DNA of 64,000 bases. Origin: Brachyhypopomus gauderio (Eukaryota > Chordata > Actinopteri > Gymnotiformes > Hypopomidae). The translations under genes and the position numbers were made by a program. Every line of letters begins with the position of its first letter. Positions within the stretch are counted from its first letter, which is position 1. The notes under the pieces were generated by a model. That model made no database searches. It was not told the origin of the DNA and saw only the letters and a program-made list of their open reading frames with translations. Positions 19,029-28,714 of this stretch are shown here, piece by piece. The stretch spans positions 10,337,873 to 10,401,872 of the forward strand of contig NC_135222.1 in the NCBI RefSeq assembly GCF_052324685.1, read 5' to 3'.

Positions 19029-19272
19029 CAGCTGGTTCATTGCAAACACAGAAATGCCACAAGACAACGAAACGGAGCAAGCAAGTCCATATTTAAAGCT
19101 TAAATTAATATTATTTTTATAATCAGTTTCTGGAAGAAATTGACTTTTTGTAAGTTTTGTTCAACTCCTCTCACATTTATTAAAATACAAGTATTTAAAT
19201 TCTGTAGTGATCCATAGTAGCCAATCAGGGTAGCTCAAACAAAGATAATTTCCAGATAAAATAAGTCTATTG

Positions 19273-19634
19273 TACGGAGCCCCGTAGGGGTCACTGGCGA
19301 AAAAAAAATTTGAGGAGCAAAATCCGTACGCATGGATTAATAAACCGTACGTACGGATTACTAAACCGTACGCACGGATTACTAAACCGTACGCACGGAT
19401 TACTAAACCGTACGTACGGATTTATAAACCGTACGTACGGATTACTAAACCGTACGCACGGATTACTAAACCGTACGCACGGATTACTAAACCGTACGTA
19501 CGGATTTATAAACCGTACGTACGGATTACTAAATCGTACGCACGGATTACTAAACCGTACGCACGGATTTATAAAACGTATAATAATTTATAAAACGTAG
19601 CTTTCTCCCTAGTAACCCCTCCAGGGCTCCGTAG
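19273..19634. repeat. left terminal inverted repeat with 21-bp array
   Basis: Outer block 19273-19322, then twelve tandem 21-bp units (about 19323-19580), each with a near-palindromic core CCGTACG(C/T)ACGG followed by ATTACTAAA, ATTTATAAA or a close variant. The inner block reads CTTTCTCCCTAGTAACCCC and ends GGGCTCCGTAG. The inner block reappears inverted in the right arm. The regular 21-bp spacing is two helical turns. Confidence 0.9.
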
Positions 19635-19711
19635 TGGCCAGTCGCTACAAGTTCCCTCAGCATCTCTGCTTTAAGGAACACGTGTAGCTAGCGTCACGTT
19701 TATTATAAATA

Positions 19712-22700
19712 ATGGACAGTTTCTTGATATTTCTTCAAGAAAACAGGCGATTGGACGACATTACTGTGTCAACCTTTCGTGATGAAAAGGTAAATATAAG
19801 CAAGAAACGTAAAACTAAGCAGACAGTATCAGAGAGTTGGTAGACAATGGAGTTGTGTGCACCATGCAACCTACGTGTCTCGTACATAGTTAACAACGGG
19901 TTTATAATGTAATGAAATTGAGCTTTACTGCTGTTTGGTATGGTACAAGTGTGTTAAGCCGATGGGTTTGTTAAAAATGACTCACATATTCGTCCTCGAG
20001 TCTGTACGTACAAAGTTCTGGAAAGTTCTCCCAGACCCATCTTATCACTGATTAAACTTGGATAAATCGGGTTTTAATTTTGAAAATAAAAAGTTAGTCA
20101 AATTAATAAACACGTCCTCTGACATGGTATATTTAGAACTGATGGTGATTTTACAACTGACGGTGGTGACAGTGGCCTCGTTACAAATATACAATTCCAG
20201 AATGTATTTAACTATTTGGTTCAAAAACAATTCTGAGCCCTGTGATTAACATTTTTCAAGGAATATAAGGTACAATTAATATCATTAAGTGTACCCCATC
20301 CACATATCACCAAATATGTGTCAGTGCGCAGTGTCTTGTGCTCGTCGTTGTCTAATGGCGCATTTCCACTAGGGCCTGCTTGGCGCGGTACGGTTCGATA
20401 CGGGTCGCTTCGCAACGGAACGGTACGGTCGCGTTGTGTTTCCATTACAATGGTGAACCACCCCAATGTGGGTGGAGTCGCTGTTGGCGCGCGGGTTGTA
20501 GTGTCGTGACATCATTTGTATGCGACCACAACACCGGCACAACACCCCTTAACAAATAGCATTATTGTATCTTATTTATCTTTATCTTCATTATTGTATG
20601 TGGTTGCTCTAATTATTGATAATAATTTGGTATTACTCAAACAGGCTGAATACACCCTGCATAAAAAGCATCAGTCATACAATCAAATGAAATCAAACTT
20701 TATTATGAAATAGATATTTAAAGTACAACATATGTAAATTATAGTTATAGTTTAAAAAAGTGCAAAAAGCAAATATATACGTATAGCTTTATATGAAATA
20801 AATATTTATAGTACTACAAGCAACATTTTGTGTGCTTTTACTGGCGTCTGTCTCGCATGGTGTTCACAAGTTCGCCAAGCACCCCGAGGAAAGCCCGGTT
20901 GAAGGAAACATTTTCCGCCAACTCCGCTCGCCTCGTCAATGGAAGGGGAATCTTGAACGTAAAAAATAACAAATATTAAACACAAGTATTCCCGTGAAAG
21001 CAACAACAATATAGCGTAACTGCACAAAATGTGTAGCACGTCATCGCTGCTATGGCTACAGCTAACTAGCAAGGCTAAGAGCTAGCTATTGTACAGTAGT
21101 GACTGTGGTGGTAACATTAACTACAAACACAGCTCTAAATTCCTGCGTTTACAATAGATGCGTTCATATTACGTTCATATTACATCTTTTACGAGCCTAG
21201 TAGTAAAACTGTGAAATCACAATACACTCACCATTCTCCGTGGCCTCCAGCACCGACATCGTCGTGTCCAGCACGTTTTCTCTTCCGTTACTGGCTGGCC
21301 GGTGACCGTATACGACATCCATTTGCTGGAACCATTTCCAGTCTTTGCGGTTTGCTCCGCTGCGTCCGTTATGGTCCTTCACCGCCCGGTAATCGCGTTA
21401 AGCTTTTTTAGCTTGGACCGACCGGCACTGCTGAACGGACCGCTGGTAGCCATGAGTGGCCATTAGCGCGGAAACATCGCTAAAAACCTTTACATTTCTA
21501 GTGCCCCTGTCCAGTTCACCCTGGATTTTTTGATCGCTGATTATTAACAGAAAGGTTTGTATCTCGGCGTTTGACCAGGGAACAGACTTCGCTCCTTGGG
21601 TTTTAAAAATGGCTGAGGAGTCCATAGCATAGCGGAGGAGTCGCTCTCCTGACGCACCCTGTGACGACACTCCCTGGCCAATCAGTGTCATGCTGTTCCT
21701 CCACGTCACAGAACTGTACCGCTTCGGAACGGTTAGAACCTCGAGCGAGTCGGTACGAAAAAAGTACCCAAAGGGGCCGGCTAAACGGGTCCTGGTACTA
21801 ATGGAAACACTCACAAACCGACCCGTATCGAACCGTACCGCGCCAAGCAGGCCCTAGTGGAAATGCGCCATAAGTCTGCACGTTTGCGTGTATTTATGTG
21901 AGTTTGTACGTGCGCATACAGCGCCATCTGTTGTCCATTAAACGTGACGCCTGTTGTCAAGCCTGTTGTCAATTTGTGTCTCGTCCTTCACGCTGCACCC
22001 AACGTCACAGCCAGCATATAATCATTAAAAAAATAAAAAATAAACCTGATCTGAGATCATTCCTGGAATATAGAATGTTATTAATTTCCAACAGAATTAG
22101 CACATTTCTCAGTGGGACATGTTTTATCCAAAATCTACAGTGTAATATAGTAATGCTCATATTATCCCACCATGCTGCCACAGATGATAGATAGTAACAG
22201 TAACCGTAACAGTAAACAAATTTTGTGCATTAAAATGCATTTTATAAACACAGCCCACTTATAGTATAAAGTACTCCTATTTAGCTCCCACTCTGAATTT
22301 AAAGGATATTTGGTTGGCATAGTTTCGGTCAATTTGTTGTATTAATTATGTTTTTGTTCACCCCCTATAGATGTTATAGACTGTTGTGCTGTTAATAGCA
22401 TGTCAGATGAGCAACTGATGAAATATGTGCCCAGATTTGGAGACCGGATAGCAGTAAGGCAATACTGCAGAAGGGAAGTGGCTGCATCAGAGGGAATCAG
22501 CAGTACTGTGTCTAAAGCAACTGAAAATCTCATGGCAAAGCTGAACGAAAGACATGCCTGCAAGAGAAAGCATAATGACAGTCAATCTCAAAAACTGTAT
22601 AGGAACTTAAATGCTCAAAAAGCAGAACGGAATTACCAAATGGGACTATTTGAAGAAGTTGGTGACTCCTTTGTTCAGATCAAAGGGAAACGAGGAGGTG

Positions 22701-24420
22701 GAATCAGGCACCTGAAGGCTTTAAAAACAGCTACAATGGCAGAGCTTTTAAAGTGTGGCAAACAGCTGTTCTTTCCAAATGGAAAAAACAAATTGGGTGA
22801 CATAACTGAATTTGAAATCACAATGAGAGACTTTACTGAAGAAGAGCTAGATCCATTGACCACACTGGGTGAACAGTACGAAACAAGGAAAGTGAAAGTA
22901 CTGAGACTTTATCTGTCTTGCAAAAGGATAGACACAACCACTACTCCAAGGGCAGAGGAATCACTGGTTGAACTTCAATCTACTTCTGCTATGATAAACT
23001 TTCCCTCAGCAGAGAACTACAGTGTAACAGCAGAGAACAGTAGTGTAACAGCAGAGAACAGCAGTTTAACAGCAGAGAACAGTAGTGTAACAGCAGAGAA
23101 CAGCAGTGTTTTTGTTGATTTAGTGTCTCTTCCAGTGGACAGTGTGGTGCTGGTTGAAGATGATACATTTCATACAATACAAGAGACAAGTGCCATTTCA
23201 GTTGATGAAGAAATTCAGCTTGGTTATGCTTTCATGCAGGAAGATGTAATACTTGATGATACAATTCCTCTGGATCCATTTGAAAGGGCACAAACACCAC
23301 CACCACCACACATCACAAAGATGAGGCTTCGGAGGGGACATGTTTTTCAAGATCTGAATGCTGCTTTTAAGAATGGCTTGGTGTCAGTAGATGACTCCTT
23401 GGTAGAAATTGAGATGGTTCTGCCTAATGGTAGTACTGAAAAAGGGGAGGACAGTGGTGGGATTCTGCGAGATGCACTGAGTGAGTACTGGGAGACTTTT
23501 TTAATGAAATGTACAACAGGAAATACCCTGAAAGTACCAATGACCAGACATGACATGAAAGATGAATGGGAATGTGTAGCCAAAGTGATGGTACTAGGCT
23601 ACAATACTGTTAAATACTTCCCCATTATGCTTGCCAAGCCCTTCCTCTGCTACTCTCTTGGACTGGTAATTGCTGAGGATGACCTCTTTTCAGCATTTTT
23701 GGCAACAATTCCTCCAGAGGAAAAGCAACTTGCCGAACAAGCAGTGAGAGACTTTTCATCTGTCTCTGGAAGTGAAGAATGGTTTGAATTCTTAGAGGCT
23801 CATGATGTGAAACTTCTTGTCACTGAGAAGAATGCAAGAAAAACTTTACTTGAGGTGGTGCACAAAGAAATTGTCCAAAATCCTGCTTACATAGCAGAGC
23901 AATGGAGTCATGTGTTAAAAAGATTGAGATTGCCTTCAGGAGGGTTAGATGAATTGATGACTAGTCTCACTCCTACAGCAAGGAAGGTTGTAGCCATACT
24001 TCAACATGAAAGCCTCAGTAACCGAGAGCAACAAATCCTGGATTTCCTTAAGAGGTTCATCAGGAATTGCAGTGATGTTCGCCTAAAAAAGTTTCTCCGT
24101 TTTTGCACTGGTGAGTGGGAATTACATTAAACTTACTATTACATAATGTCTCTCTGATTGACTCAAGGCTTTTGTTCTGTTTTGTAAATTGTGTTTGGAT
24201 CAATTGAGTACATTTTTTGTCAATAGGAGCTGACCTCCTTGTTGCCAGTGCTATCCATGTTAGATTTGTTGAACCGAACAGTGCCTTCACAAGAAGCCCT
24301 CAGGCCCACACCTGTGGATGTGTGTTGGAAGTCCCAAACAATTACACTTCCTACCCTGAACTTGCAGAAGAGTTTGGGAGTGTTCTTGATGCAAACATAT
24401 GGGTGATGGATATTATATAA
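19712..24420 (+). CDS. HECT-domain E3 ubiquitin ligase, G2E3-like, carried by the transposon
   Basis: Exon 2 runs from an acceptor at 22370 to 24110 and exon 3 from 24227 to TAA at 24418-24420, joined in phase. A likely first exon at 19712-19789 (MDSFLIFLQENRRLDD...) has the character of the SAM-like N-terminus of fish G2E3-like proteins. However, its donor and the obvious exon 2 acceptor differ in phase by one base, so translation may instead start at the ATG at 22400. From there the product is about 636 residues: an N-terminal region (DEQLMKYVPRFGDRIA), a middle with a 7-residue repeat, and a HECT domain from about residue 310. GEDSGGILRDALSEY lies in the HECT N-lobe. The C-lobe has HTCGCVLEVP, whose first Cys (codon 24313-24315) sits where the ubiquitin-accepting cysteine belongs. 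HECT ligases pass ubiquitin from E2 to substrate through that cysteine. No RING or PHD finger is visible. The substrate is unknown. Confidence 0.85.
20356..21870. mobile_element. PIF/Harbinger-type non-autonomous DNA transposon
   Basis: A 1515-bp element with 52-bp perfect terminal inverted repeats beginning TGGCGCATTTCCACTAGGGC, flanked by a TAA target duplication (20353-20355 and 21871-21873). The 3-bp TWA target is characteristic of PIF/Harbinger. It carries only a SANT/Myb-like gene remnant on the minus strand. No DDE nuclease gene is present, so it would depend on another copy for movement. Confidence 0.85.
20838..21625 (-). pseudogene. SANT/Myb-like (trihelix) protein of the Harbinger element, frameshifted
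   Basis: The frame starts at the ATG at 21625 (MDSSAIFKTQGAKSVPWSNAEIQTF...). It shows a trihelix-like Myb domain with the key Trp in VPWSNAE and ends early at 21398. The continuation (VKDHNGRSGANRKDWKWFQQMD) lies in another frame at 21382-21232, so at least one indel near 21385-21410 has broken it. A donor GTGAGT follows at about 21227. A last exon at about 20927-20838 reads AELAENVSFNRAFLGVLGEL before TAA, in a frame that also does not join cleanly. Harbinger elements normally encode such a DNA-binding partner besides the nuclease. This copy is dead. Confidence 0.65.
23009..23109 (+). repeat. coding 21-bp minisatellite in the HECT gene
   Basis: Nearly five in-frame copies of a 21-bp unit encode SSVTAEN-type heptapeptides between the N-terminal and HECT regions. 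It is likely a flexible linker of variable copy number. Confidence 0.9.
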
Positions 24421-25813
24421 GGTAAGATTTATATGTTGCACAAAAAAATGTTACCATCCTTTCATTTAAATTTTGTTGTCTTATTATTTTTTAAAGGATG
24501 TCATGTACTCTTTACCATTACACACCTTATGGTCTATATAATTTGTCAAAGAAAATAATTCCCCAGTGGTGCCACTGATATTGCTACCCTTTAAAGAGAC
24601 CCAGAAATGAAAAATGGCTTGGCAGACCAGCAACACTGCCCACATCAGATAAAAAACACAAAGCTTTTATCTTTAAAAGAGAAGAATAATTAAGCTTCAT
24701 TCTCACTTTATATCTGAGAACATCTACAGATGTTTGTGTCCATATTTTCACTGTGAATTGGCTGTGAGTTTGAAAGCACATGAAAACACTGTTTAAAGCA
24801 CTTACTGAGGAAATTGTAAACAGATGACAAATTACTTTAAATTTACACCTAACCTGGGCATCTGAGATATAAAGTAAAATACAGAATCGTCCTTTATTTG
24901 GCAACTAAATGTTACTTAATAAACTACATGTTGTGATTTGTTACGTAGTTCCATAAATGTCCAGCACACTTCAGTGCCTGGAACGACCCACTCGTCTGCA
25001 CTGTTAACTCTGCTTTTGGCTTTTAACGTAGCTAGCTAACTCTCCAGCCCCTATTATTTAGATAAATCCAATGTATATAAACCTCCATAATGTCTTCGGG
25101 AAATCACTGGACACTGTATTCCTCACAGTTATGCACATAAAAAGTTACATTAAGTATATTTAAAATGTTTGTTGTTGTTGCACACAAACATGTTTCAATT
25201 AAGATTTAATTAACTGCACTTTATAAGAGTGAAATTAGATGAAAGTGTGATTTTGTGGTTTTGTAGTGCTATATGTATAGCCATATTCTTAATTGCCTCT
25301 GCTGAAATAGTAACATCCAGCTGTTTTTGTCCTAGGTGGCTGAGAGGTGTATGTGTCTGAATGCAAGTCCAAAGACAAGTCCAGATTTTAGCACGTTGCT
25401 TTTTTAAAAAACAATGTTCAACTGATGTGTTAAAATATGTTCAACCACCTGTTATCATAATTTAAGTATTTGTCCCACCTTTACTGTTATAGATGTATTG
25501 TTGCTGTTCATCGTTCAGCAGTTTTGTTAGTCTTTCATTGCTTCTTTTCTGTGAAAGAACCCTATGAAACACTTGTACCCTTAACTACATCATTTTTTAA
25601 TATTCCTTTGCACAAACGTTAGCATTTTATTATTTTAAATGCAGTGTTCCACTGATGTGTTAAAACAAATGGGCAACCATCTATGCTATCATAATTGTAG
25701 TATACAAATACTATGTATTCTGATACTAATAATAAACCAATTGTTTTGCATGTACTGCCAGAAATCATTTCAGGTCAGTGAAACTGTCCATAGCAGCATC
25801 CTCAGTTAACTTG
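24421..25813. other. gene-free stretch between the two convergent transposon genes
   Basis: AT-rich DNA between the 3' ends of the HECT gene and the transposase gene. It presumably holds both 3' UTRs. Nothing else is recognised. Confidence 0.6.
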
Positions 25814-27639
25814 TTAAGCTTGTACTCTATCTGCCAAATTTAACATTGTAGTCAGCTCCTGCCTTAAGGAAAGATAGAGGTCAAGGGCACCATACACATC
25901 TGCTGGAACACTGAGATGGTGCTGTGCCATGACATGTGTACAGATGGTAAACACATCCTTGTCACAAGGTACATCACATCGGTGAGTGCATTGATCTTCG
26001 CAGGTGGTACACTCTATCTCTGGCACATGGCATAAGTAGTCCTCGGTGCCATATAACTCCGGAAGTGTGTACATCACATGTGGCCGACCATGGGGTACAA
26101 GGTCATTCCTCAAAGGGCGAATAAGGTGGCTGTTCCAGGTATCTTTGACCAAATCCAACTCATCCTTTAAAGAAAAATACAGAAAAGTGTGATATTCAGG
26201 TTTTCCAACACAGTGCTTTAACTAACCAGGTTTTCCTACTTGCAGTAATTTTATTCTAATGTTTTTATTTATAGTATTTTACCAAGACCTCATTTAACAT
26301 ATTACATTTAGATGCACATGCACAATTGTTGTTTGTACAATGCTGATTATATTGTTTTATATATTATATATTACTATGTATGAGCATTATTACAAAAGCA
26401 TTTGGATATTCAATATAGTAGTAGTCACATAAAATATTAGTTAATATTATATGCACCAGTTTTCTAGTTACTCCTAGATTGCATTTACACTCAGGCAGTT
26501 TATGAGAGCCAACTACCATAGAAAGTACACTTTAAATATGTACAATAAACCTGTAGCCCATCTGTTGCTTTATACTTGATTAGCTCTTTGTTATGATTCA
26601 GATGTTGAACCATCCTCTGCATAGCACTGACACTGACAAGATGTGGAAAAACAACACAGCTGTGCATGTACCAACACCATGTTTGTACATTTCTTAGATT
26701 TACAATAATGTAATGACCAATGAATGTAGGTACAGCACAGGTATACCTAATTAACTGGACAATTAGTACAAATAGGAAGAGGCACACAAATATAATTGAA
26801 ACACTTACCTGTATTAGGCCCAGGAAGCAGAATAATATGAGGTTCTTGTCTAAGAAGCCTCCATCAAAGTTCCCATAATCTTTAAGGTGATGGAAGTGTT
26901 CAAGCCAGAATTCCACACATTCCTTTTGCAGAAAACCCCACCAGCTCTCAATTCTCTGGTTGCTAGTACTGTGGCCGTAGATAAAGCTTCTGCCTCCAGC
27001 TTGTAGATCATCATCACTATGGCGCAAGTACAGCTGAATGTTCCTGACTGTACAGTTTTCTGTTCCCAAATCTGTCCTAATGATTCGGGCAGTTCCACCA
27101 AGCTCTCTGACAGTGTCAAGATAGTAACCTCCAATAACTCTGGGGTCACTGCTAGTGCAGTATGCATTCAGCCACAACATTTTCCTTGAGAATCCGTCAA
27201 TGGCCCCATTGATGCATATGCCGAATGGTTTCAATTTGTCATATGAGTCAACATGCCATACAAAATTGGGGCCTTTTGCAAAGTATGCTCTTCTGTGCAA
27301 TCTTCTTTTTCTTCGCATTTCAGTGCTCAATGGATCAAGAGTGGACAGAATTAGGCGCACATCTTCTTTGCGAACATTCAGTCCCCTTGCCTTGCATTTA
27401 CTGTACATCCATCTGTATCCATGCAAAGTGCCTGAGCCCTGGAGTTCTTCCTGTATAAAATTAATTATATCTAACCAGTTGCTGAATTCTTTCCTGCGAA
27501 AAAGTCCATTTCGTTTTAAGACCCTTTTAAGGGTCTTCATGCTGATAACAATCCTGTGTTTTACACAAAGAATATACAGCATTTCCTCATATTTTATGCC
27601 CAGGTGAAAATAATGTTCAATTAGATCCAGTCTGCTCAT
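25814..27639 (-). CDS. integrase-like DDE transposase of the 9.3-kb element
   Basis: Two exons on the minus strand, 27639-26809 and 26164-25814, join in phase 0 with GTAAGT and AAAG borders and give 393 residues. The ATG at 27639 opens MSRLDLIEHYFHLGIKYEEM, the start of a helix-turn-helix region that runs to about residue 50. The catalytic core has the D-D-E layout of retroviral-type integrases: D131 in FVWHVDSYDKL, D190 in IIRTDLGTEN and E231 in NQRIESWW, with 40 residues between the last two. A C-terminal region with clustered Cys and His (CTTCEDQCTHRCDVPC) follows and may bind zinc. All three acidic residues are intact and there is no stop, so it may be active. The fold and DDE spacing fit rve-like or IS3-like transposases; the exact superfamily is inferred. 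It is transcribed inward from the right inverted repeat, convergent with the HECT gene. Confidence 0.8.
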
Positions 27640-28228
27640 TTTGGGGTTATGAAGAAATCCTCACCAACACCTAGCAACAAAAAAGGACAAAGAGATTAAA
27701 AAAAGTTTCATATAAAAAGAACATAGAAGAAGAAGAACAGACTGAAAGCAGCACATTTGACATATTTAATTATTCTGCCAGTTCATGCCTAATATGCAAC
27801 TTTGTTGACAATATTCCATGTGGTGATTCCATTCAATTTGACTTAGTCATCCCAATGTGCATACAGGTACTCTACAACAACTAAATTACATATAAAGTAC
27901 ATGTCATATGTCCATGCAAATTGACAAATGTTGGCTAGGAGGTGCTGCCCCCTTGTCTATATGCAATGAAGTACTCATGTTTCCACATCTAATGTAAAAC
28001 CATATCAGAAATCCATATCAGAAGAATAGCAGGTGTTACTCCAGTAGGAGGGGGTAAGAAATCACAAAAGAATATGACAAATACAAGCGAGCAATTTACC
28101 GTTAAGTATATGACTAAAATGAAAAATGAGAAAAAAATATAAATACCTTACATGCAACGTACGAACAGTTTAAATGCACGCAAATACGCCGTGGTACACT
28201 AAATTATGTTGCCGAGCATTATCCACAA
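27640..28228 (-). other. transposase gene upstream region
   Basis: AT-rich sequence between the transposase ATG and the right inverted repeat. It probably contains its promoter and possibly a 5' UTR exon. No motif is distinct enough to call. Confidence 0.4.
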
Positions 28229-28605
28229 AATACGGAGCCCTTGAGGGGTTACTACGGAGCTCTGGAGGGGTTACTAGGGAGAAATCTACGGAAGCCCGGA
28301 GAAAGCAAAATCCGTGCGTACGGTTTATAAATCCGTGCGTACGGTTTAGTAATCCGTGCGTACGGTTTATAAATCCGTGCGTACGGTTTAGTAATCCGTG
28401 CGTACGGTTTATAAATCCGTGCGTACGGTTTATAAATCCGTGCGTACGGTTTAGTAATCCGTGCGTACGGTTTATAAATCCGTGCGTACGGTTTAGTAAT
28501 CCGTGCGTACGGTTTAGTAATCCGTACGTACGGTTTATAAATCCGTGCGTACGGATTTTGCTCTTCAAATTTTTTTTTCGCCAGTGACCCTTACGGGGCT
28601 CCGTA
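28229..28605. repeat. right terminal inverted repeat with 21-bp array
   Basis: The inverted counterpart of the left arm. An inner block at 28231-28291 is rich in GGAGGGGTTACTAGGGAGAAA. Twelve 21-bp units follow (core CCGTGCGTACGG with TTTATAAAT or TTTAGTAAT spacers, about 28310-28555). The outer block closes with GGGGCTCCGTA. Confidence 0.9.
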
Positions 28606-28714
28606 CTATTGGATGAAAACATAAAAAAAAACTTTTCATGGAATATCCTTTATAGTGGGCAACAGGAAAACTGAGAGCCAGTTTCAGTAACTGAGAATGT
28701 CAGAAAACTGTGGA

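Follow-up and report, generated by a model that had tools for sequence, protein, structure and literature searches.

The window analysed in this study, a stretch of 64,000 nucleotides from Brachyhypopomus gauderio, contains at positions 19273-28605 a DNA transposon with inverted ends of the form TACGG...CCGTA. Two genes lie between these ends in convergent orientation, a HECT gene on the plus strand and a transposase gene on the minus strand (Table 1). The left end begins with TACGGAGCCCCGTAGGGGTCACTGGCGAAAAAAAAATTTG, and the right end, read on the opposite strand, repeats it with 2 mismatches in 54 bases. The hexamer CTATTG flanks the element exactly on both sides as a target site duplication (TSD). 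The original prediction had described the inverted ends, the 6-bp duplication and the inward transcription of both genes, and all three were found again. It had also described a 9.3-kb element; the transposon itself was confirmed, its size being inflated by a nested 1,515-bp insertion.

Both ends follow the same plan, in which the tip is followed by a 21-bp repeat array and then by an inner inverted cap resembling the tip. The inverted arms reach 302 nt with 93% complementarity because the array is present in each end, and the core of its units, CCGTACGYACGG, is a palindrome. With its inner cap inverted and similar to the terminal inverted repeat (TIR), each end resembles a small palindromic module. 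Comparison of the element with Rfam gave no match.

The two-exon transposase frame (27639-26809 joined to 26164-25814, exons read by eye) had no internal stop and matched the integrase core PF24764 with an E value of 1.9e-19. The gene had been called an apparently intact helix-turn-helix (HTH)/DDE gene, which agrees with the open frame and the core, the HTH and the D, D and E residues being read by eye only. A protein search with the transposase returned 789 matches, with fish, mussels and echinoderms among the 120 listed. The HECT gene has three exons; to an open reading frame (ORF) of 576 amino acids (aa) its last exon adds the part that completes the HECT domain. The HECT frame of the window copy is broken where exon 2 starts, its length differing there by 5 bp from that of the sister copy C8, so the earlier description of this gene as almost intact was correct.

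Table 1. Coordinates of the element and its parts in the window.
Feature	Position	Strand	Remarks
TSD CTATTG, left copy	19267-19272	.	
Left TIR	19273-19570	+	TACGGAGCCC tip, then 21-bp repeat array built on CCGTACGYACGG
Left array inner cap	19604-19633	-	inverted, TIR-like, TACGGAGCCCTGGAGGGGTTACTAGGGAGA
HECT exon 1	19712-19789	+	26 codons; matches P0001 residues 1-26
Nested 1,515-bp insertion	20356-21870	.	HECT intron 1; TAA duplication; ends TGGCGCATTT...AAATGCGCCA; absent from C8 copy
HECT exon 2	22371-24110	+	SAM-like, ubiquitin-like, linker, most of HECT domain; ORF open from 22400
HECT exon 3	24227-24420	+	HTC cysteine, end of C-lobe
Transposase exon 2	25814-26164	-	C-terminal part
Transposase exon 1	26809-27639	-	HTH by eye; integrase core; D, D, E by eye in HVDSYD, RTDLGTEN, NQRIESW
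Right array inner caps	28231-28274	+	TIR-like, 22-bp unit x2
Right TIR	28308-28605	-	21-bp array of same kind as left
TSD CTATTG, right copy	28606-28611	.	

Copies, relatives and superfamily of the element

The C8 sister copy measures 7,735 bp, is flanked by the TSD GAATTC and lacks both the nested insertion and the 5-bp frame defect. Outside the nested insertion, 33 of the 7,735 aligned positions carry substitutions between the two copies (0.43%), to which six short length differences are added, and a divergence this small indicates that the family moved recently. The left end gave 79 matches in the genome, which is not a copy number because some arrays, being palindromic, are matched a second time on the other strand. 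Among the 13 copies that were read, both tips were present in 10, and 9 of these 10 carried an exact 6-bp TSD, with nine different hexamers. The left tip was lost at L010, and one end only was seen at L020 and L021. The flank of L021 (C90) equals that of L011 (C231), so a single insertion may have been read here on two haplotypes.

Both genes were found between these ends in the window, C8 and C6:33.76M copies. When nine copies with both end regions were tested, C8 had both genes and the other eight (430 to 7,864 bp) had neither. Neither gene was matched in L020 or L021, the stretches with a single end, and no copy carrying just one gene was present among the fetched loci with these ends. As the gene-free copies read here lacked both genes and not just one, they look like non-autonomous deletions. 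Genome searches added a C26 copy with both genes and a C18 copy with a HECT piece and without the transposase.

The two genes were also counted genome-wide with two protein queries, and the resulting locus counts are lower bounds. The HECT ORF gave 84 matches at 56 loci and the transposase exon 110 matches at 94 loci, matches being clustered by strand with a 6-kb gap and pairs accepted up to 15 kb, a limit of our own choice. A transposase was located within this distance of 44 of the 56 HECT loci, the median distance between the two genes being 2,565 bp, and every one of the 44 pairs was convergent; random placement would be expected to give about 0.2 pairs. The pairing was retained at about 25-35% HECT identity. 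The expected co-occurrence of ends and genes was thus observed, in three copies with these ends and in the convergent pairs of the wider genome, and the opposite case, in which the same ends never contain the HECT gene, does not apply, copies without it existing alongside.

Complete elements were also read in other lineages. Lineage B (C120, 54% HECT identity) is a 6,920-bp element with the TSD GAAATA and tip bases matching at 25 of 25 positions; lineage C (C107, 34%) has TACGGAGCCCGTAAGG at both ends; and lineage D (C7:6.97M, 33%) has the TSD CATATG. The inverted arms of lineage D (L024 with L026 and L027) measure about 1.77 kb and are 99.7% identical, both values being high for an element of 9 kb. 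The C47 element (8.7 kb, TACGGTGGCC ends, TSD TTTTTC) showed no HECT gene with the window query; it carries a different HECT gene on the strand opposite to the transposase (Pfam HECT E 8.5e-10). A second copy of this gene pair, 99-100% identical and convergent, lies on C9, and a relative on C27 has a transposase at 66% identity convergent with at least the C-lobe of a C47-type HECT (61%). An exact 6-bp TSD was present in three of the four other lineages read at both ends. The window-type and C47 HECT proteins matched only weakly in hhalign (probability 1.9 with E 0.026; for the N-terminal piece, 0.4 with E 0.17), and a single acquisition of HECT is therefore not claimed.

In protein searches, the HECT protein was found to be encoded by several other fish. 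HECT and transposase matches fell on equal-sized contigs of Misgurnus and Knipowitschia and on one 7,328-base contig, closeness of the two being shown only in the last. The HECT profile search added firefly, leaf beetle and annelid proteins. A predicted 972-aa protein of the beetle Phaedon cochleariae (P0164) joins the HECT family to a PF14291 part, perhaps through gene-model fusion.

IS3EU/GingerRoot elements have TA..TA termini, a TSD of usually 6 bp and a DDE transposase related to IS3/IS481 without the HHCC motif (PMC10045372, PMC12730594), and the termini of TET-bearing (TET+) IS3EU families of rust fungi are TAYGG..CCRTA (PMC12730594). The present element shares the TACGG tips within TA..TA ends (TACGGAGCCC..GGGCTCCGTA; TA..TA termini also in lineages B, C107, D and C47), and the 6-bp TSD found in most of the window-type copies and other lineages; its transposase, with the PF24764 integrase core and D, D and E residues read by eye, is probably of the integrase-like DDE kind. 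These ends and duplications fit IS3EU/GingerRoot, from which the element differs in that the gene beside its transposase encodes a HECT E3 ligase. Ginger1 and Ginger2 were rejected on the TSD, which is given as 4 bp and 4-5 bp, respectively (PMC10045372), against 6 bp here. The fungal TET+ IS3EU families likewise combine a transposase with an oppositely oriented gene for another enzyme; this is an alpha-kinase gene, with a TET/JBP dioxygenase between (PMC12730594), whereas a HECT ligase occupies that place here. The literature search found no paper naming both IS3EU and HECT, and no HECT-bearing transposon was recognised in the titles and abstract openings of the matches listed by broader searches. 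The superfamily is thus a known one, and its HECT E3-ligase gene was not met in the literature searched; a prior Repbase annotation of a HECT-bearing element is possible. Polinton/Maverick elements are large and carry DNA polymerase B and capsid genes; two genes only were recognised in the 7.7-kb C8 sister copy, no search being aimed at Polinton/Maverick genes.

The HECT protein and its divergence

The B. gauderio protein P0001 is 99% identical to the window exon-2 ORF, and P0012 is another HECT-family protein of this species. A first AlphaFold model (14 sequences, pLDDT 52.4) was discarded because its HECT half was too poor; its better part gave matches of ubiquitin-like kind, to GABARAP, RING1B and SATB1 (best E 9.5e-4). 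The second model (25 sequences, pLDDT 74.6) gave a predicted HECT fold with N-lobe, C-lobe and catalytic cysteine. The HTC cysteine is present in 13 of the 25 alignment rows, which are all the rows covering that site. By modelled fold and cysteine, the window-type protein is a predicted HECT E3 ligase. It resembles UBR5, HUWE1, E6AP and HERC6 (HERC6 by sequence) in the two-lobe fold and the HTC cysteine, at 13-15% identity to the first three in the best full-HECT rows, and differs from them in its SAM-like and ubiquitin-like N-terminal half. G2E3, also a HECT protein, has N-terminal PHD/RING zinc fingers. No PHD/RING Pfam match at E 0.1 was found in P0001, P0002, P0003, P0012 or P0013, and the label "G2E3-like", which the original prediction had linked to HECT families in gene lists of fish, was not upheld. 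Viral contigs scanned with the HECT profile gave 60 pattern matches, none of them confirmed. The HECT linker contains a coding 21-bp minisatellite with TAENSSV repeats (22986-23111), whose unit length equals that of the end arrays.

For 12 copies, protein distances taken pair by pair agreed between HECT and transposase (r 0.89, p 0.0001). The agreement was r 0.62 (p 0.0019) over 9 lineages after near-duplicates were dropped, and r 0.77 (p 0.0007) over 8 lineages when one outlier, C7:16.66M, was also removed. Between distant lineages, silent changes exceeded amino-acid changes in both genes: in three distant pairs, the proportions of non-synonymous (pN) and synonymous (pS) differences were 0.28-0.35 and 0.77-0.81 for HECT and 0.19-0.22 and 0.87-0.91 for the transposase. 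In three close pairs, the transposase values of pN/pS were 0.012/0.024, 0.100/0.141 and 0.060/0.086.

Role of the ligase in the element

Taken together, we consider that the element is an autonomous-type IS3EU/GingerRoot transposon of a recently active family, encoding a DDE transposase of the IS3/integrase type and, convergent with it, a HECT E3 ligase that would act as a helper in trans (probability about 0.75). The same arrangement of the two genes is met dozens of times in the genome among distant relatives, a pattern suggesting that the ligase has a working role in the transposon and is no chance passenger. The transposase would cut and paste at the TACGG ends, as family knowledge and the TSDs indicate, and the putative ligase would be supplied in trans by full copies. 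That the ligase gene keeps its position and its cysteine among deeply diverged copies, while deletion derivatives spread without it, fits such a product. The N-terminal half of the ligase may recruit the substrate, which would in the first place be a host protein that limits transposition and in the second place the transposase or its post-integration complex. We lean to a host-facing target because HECT changes more than the transposase and appears to be exchanged between lineages.

Several observations weigh against this interpretation. No exact TSD was found at the both-tip copy C6:33.76M (L016/17) or at C107. The Pfam HECT score was modest (25.3 bits; cut-off 23.9), and P0013 and the window exon-2 ORF alone had no Pfam HECT match. 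In the genome-wide count, 12 of the 56 HECT loci had no transposase within 15 kb, 50 of the 94 transposase loci had no window-type HECT within that distance, and one transposase was common to two of the 44 paired HECT loci (C6:33.33M and 33.35M). Only three of the 50 unpaired transposase loci were read, from two lineages, and all three had HECT sequence of a different type. These counts come from one assembly, in which duplicate haplotypes may inflate them. Constraint on HECT was weaker in the three close pairs (pN/pS 0.035/0.049, 0.030/0.059 and 0.012/0.048), and the window and C8 copies (0.003/0.002) have too few changes to tell. Finally, at C7:16.66M the HECT gene falls in the H/N/O clade (bootstrap 100) and the transposase beside C/K (72), a discordance suggesting that the ligase gene was exchanged between lineages.

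A wider proposal is that IS3EU elements of animals, at least of fish, are two-component machines that need a self-encoded HECT for efficient transposition, that HECT genes of different types can occupy the second position and pass from one lineage to another, and that this carrier is a main origin of the "uncharacterized HECT" genes present in many copies in fish genomes. We regard it as tentative, at somewhat short of even odds.

It is possible, but on present evidence rather less probable, that the ligase targets the element's own machinery and marks the transposase or the strand-transfer complex with ubiquitin, either to limit copy number or to clear the complex for repair. The co-variation of HECT and transposase fits a partner inside the element, and the transposon-derived RAG1 carries a RING ligase domain. 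However, tight protein-protein pairing would resist the combination of clades seen at C7:16.66M, and HECT changed more than the transposase in the three distant pairs, as a host-facing protein might. We consider it unlikely that the HECT gene was captured from a host and rides along as neutral cargo. Non-autonomous copies do spread without it, constraint is weak between close copies, and passive transfer of TET/JBP genes between fungal transposon families has been described (PMC12730594); nevertheless, the invariably convergent pairing kept at low HECT identity, the pN that stays low between distant lineages while pS is saturated, and the retained predicted fold and cysteine argue otherwise. 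That the HECT genes are an immobile host family in many copies, with repeats close by through chance, is very improbable, for although databases show such proteins as ordinary uncharacterized fish proteins, nine copies have exact TSDs, the transposase pairing is far above chance, and complete elements occur in several lineages.

If the helper interpretation is true, this is a DNA transposon with its own ubiquitin ligase and a defined vertebrate transposon system having a second factor, in which the young copy pair would make protein turnover in transposition directly testable. Moreover, many multi-copy HECT genes of fish would be transposon genes, to be dropped from host gene-family counts.

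Other sequences in and around the copies

The nested insertion is one that we take to be PIF/Harbinger-like, and it contains on the minus strand an ORF (21398-21814) that by eye resembles a Harbinger-type Myb/MADF protein. A 352-aa ORF inside a non-autonomous copy (L011:2278-3336) likewise resembles, by eye, a Harbinger-type DDE transposase. Inside or beside the C27 IS3EU element is a 3.7-kb open frame (L049:1-3726) of retrotransposon type by eye, with a zinc knuckle and a protease-like part. In addition, transposase fragments recur every 50-57 kb or so at C13 (8767217, 8817086 and 8869636) and C58 (30232, 86848 and 138200), perhaps through segmental duplication.
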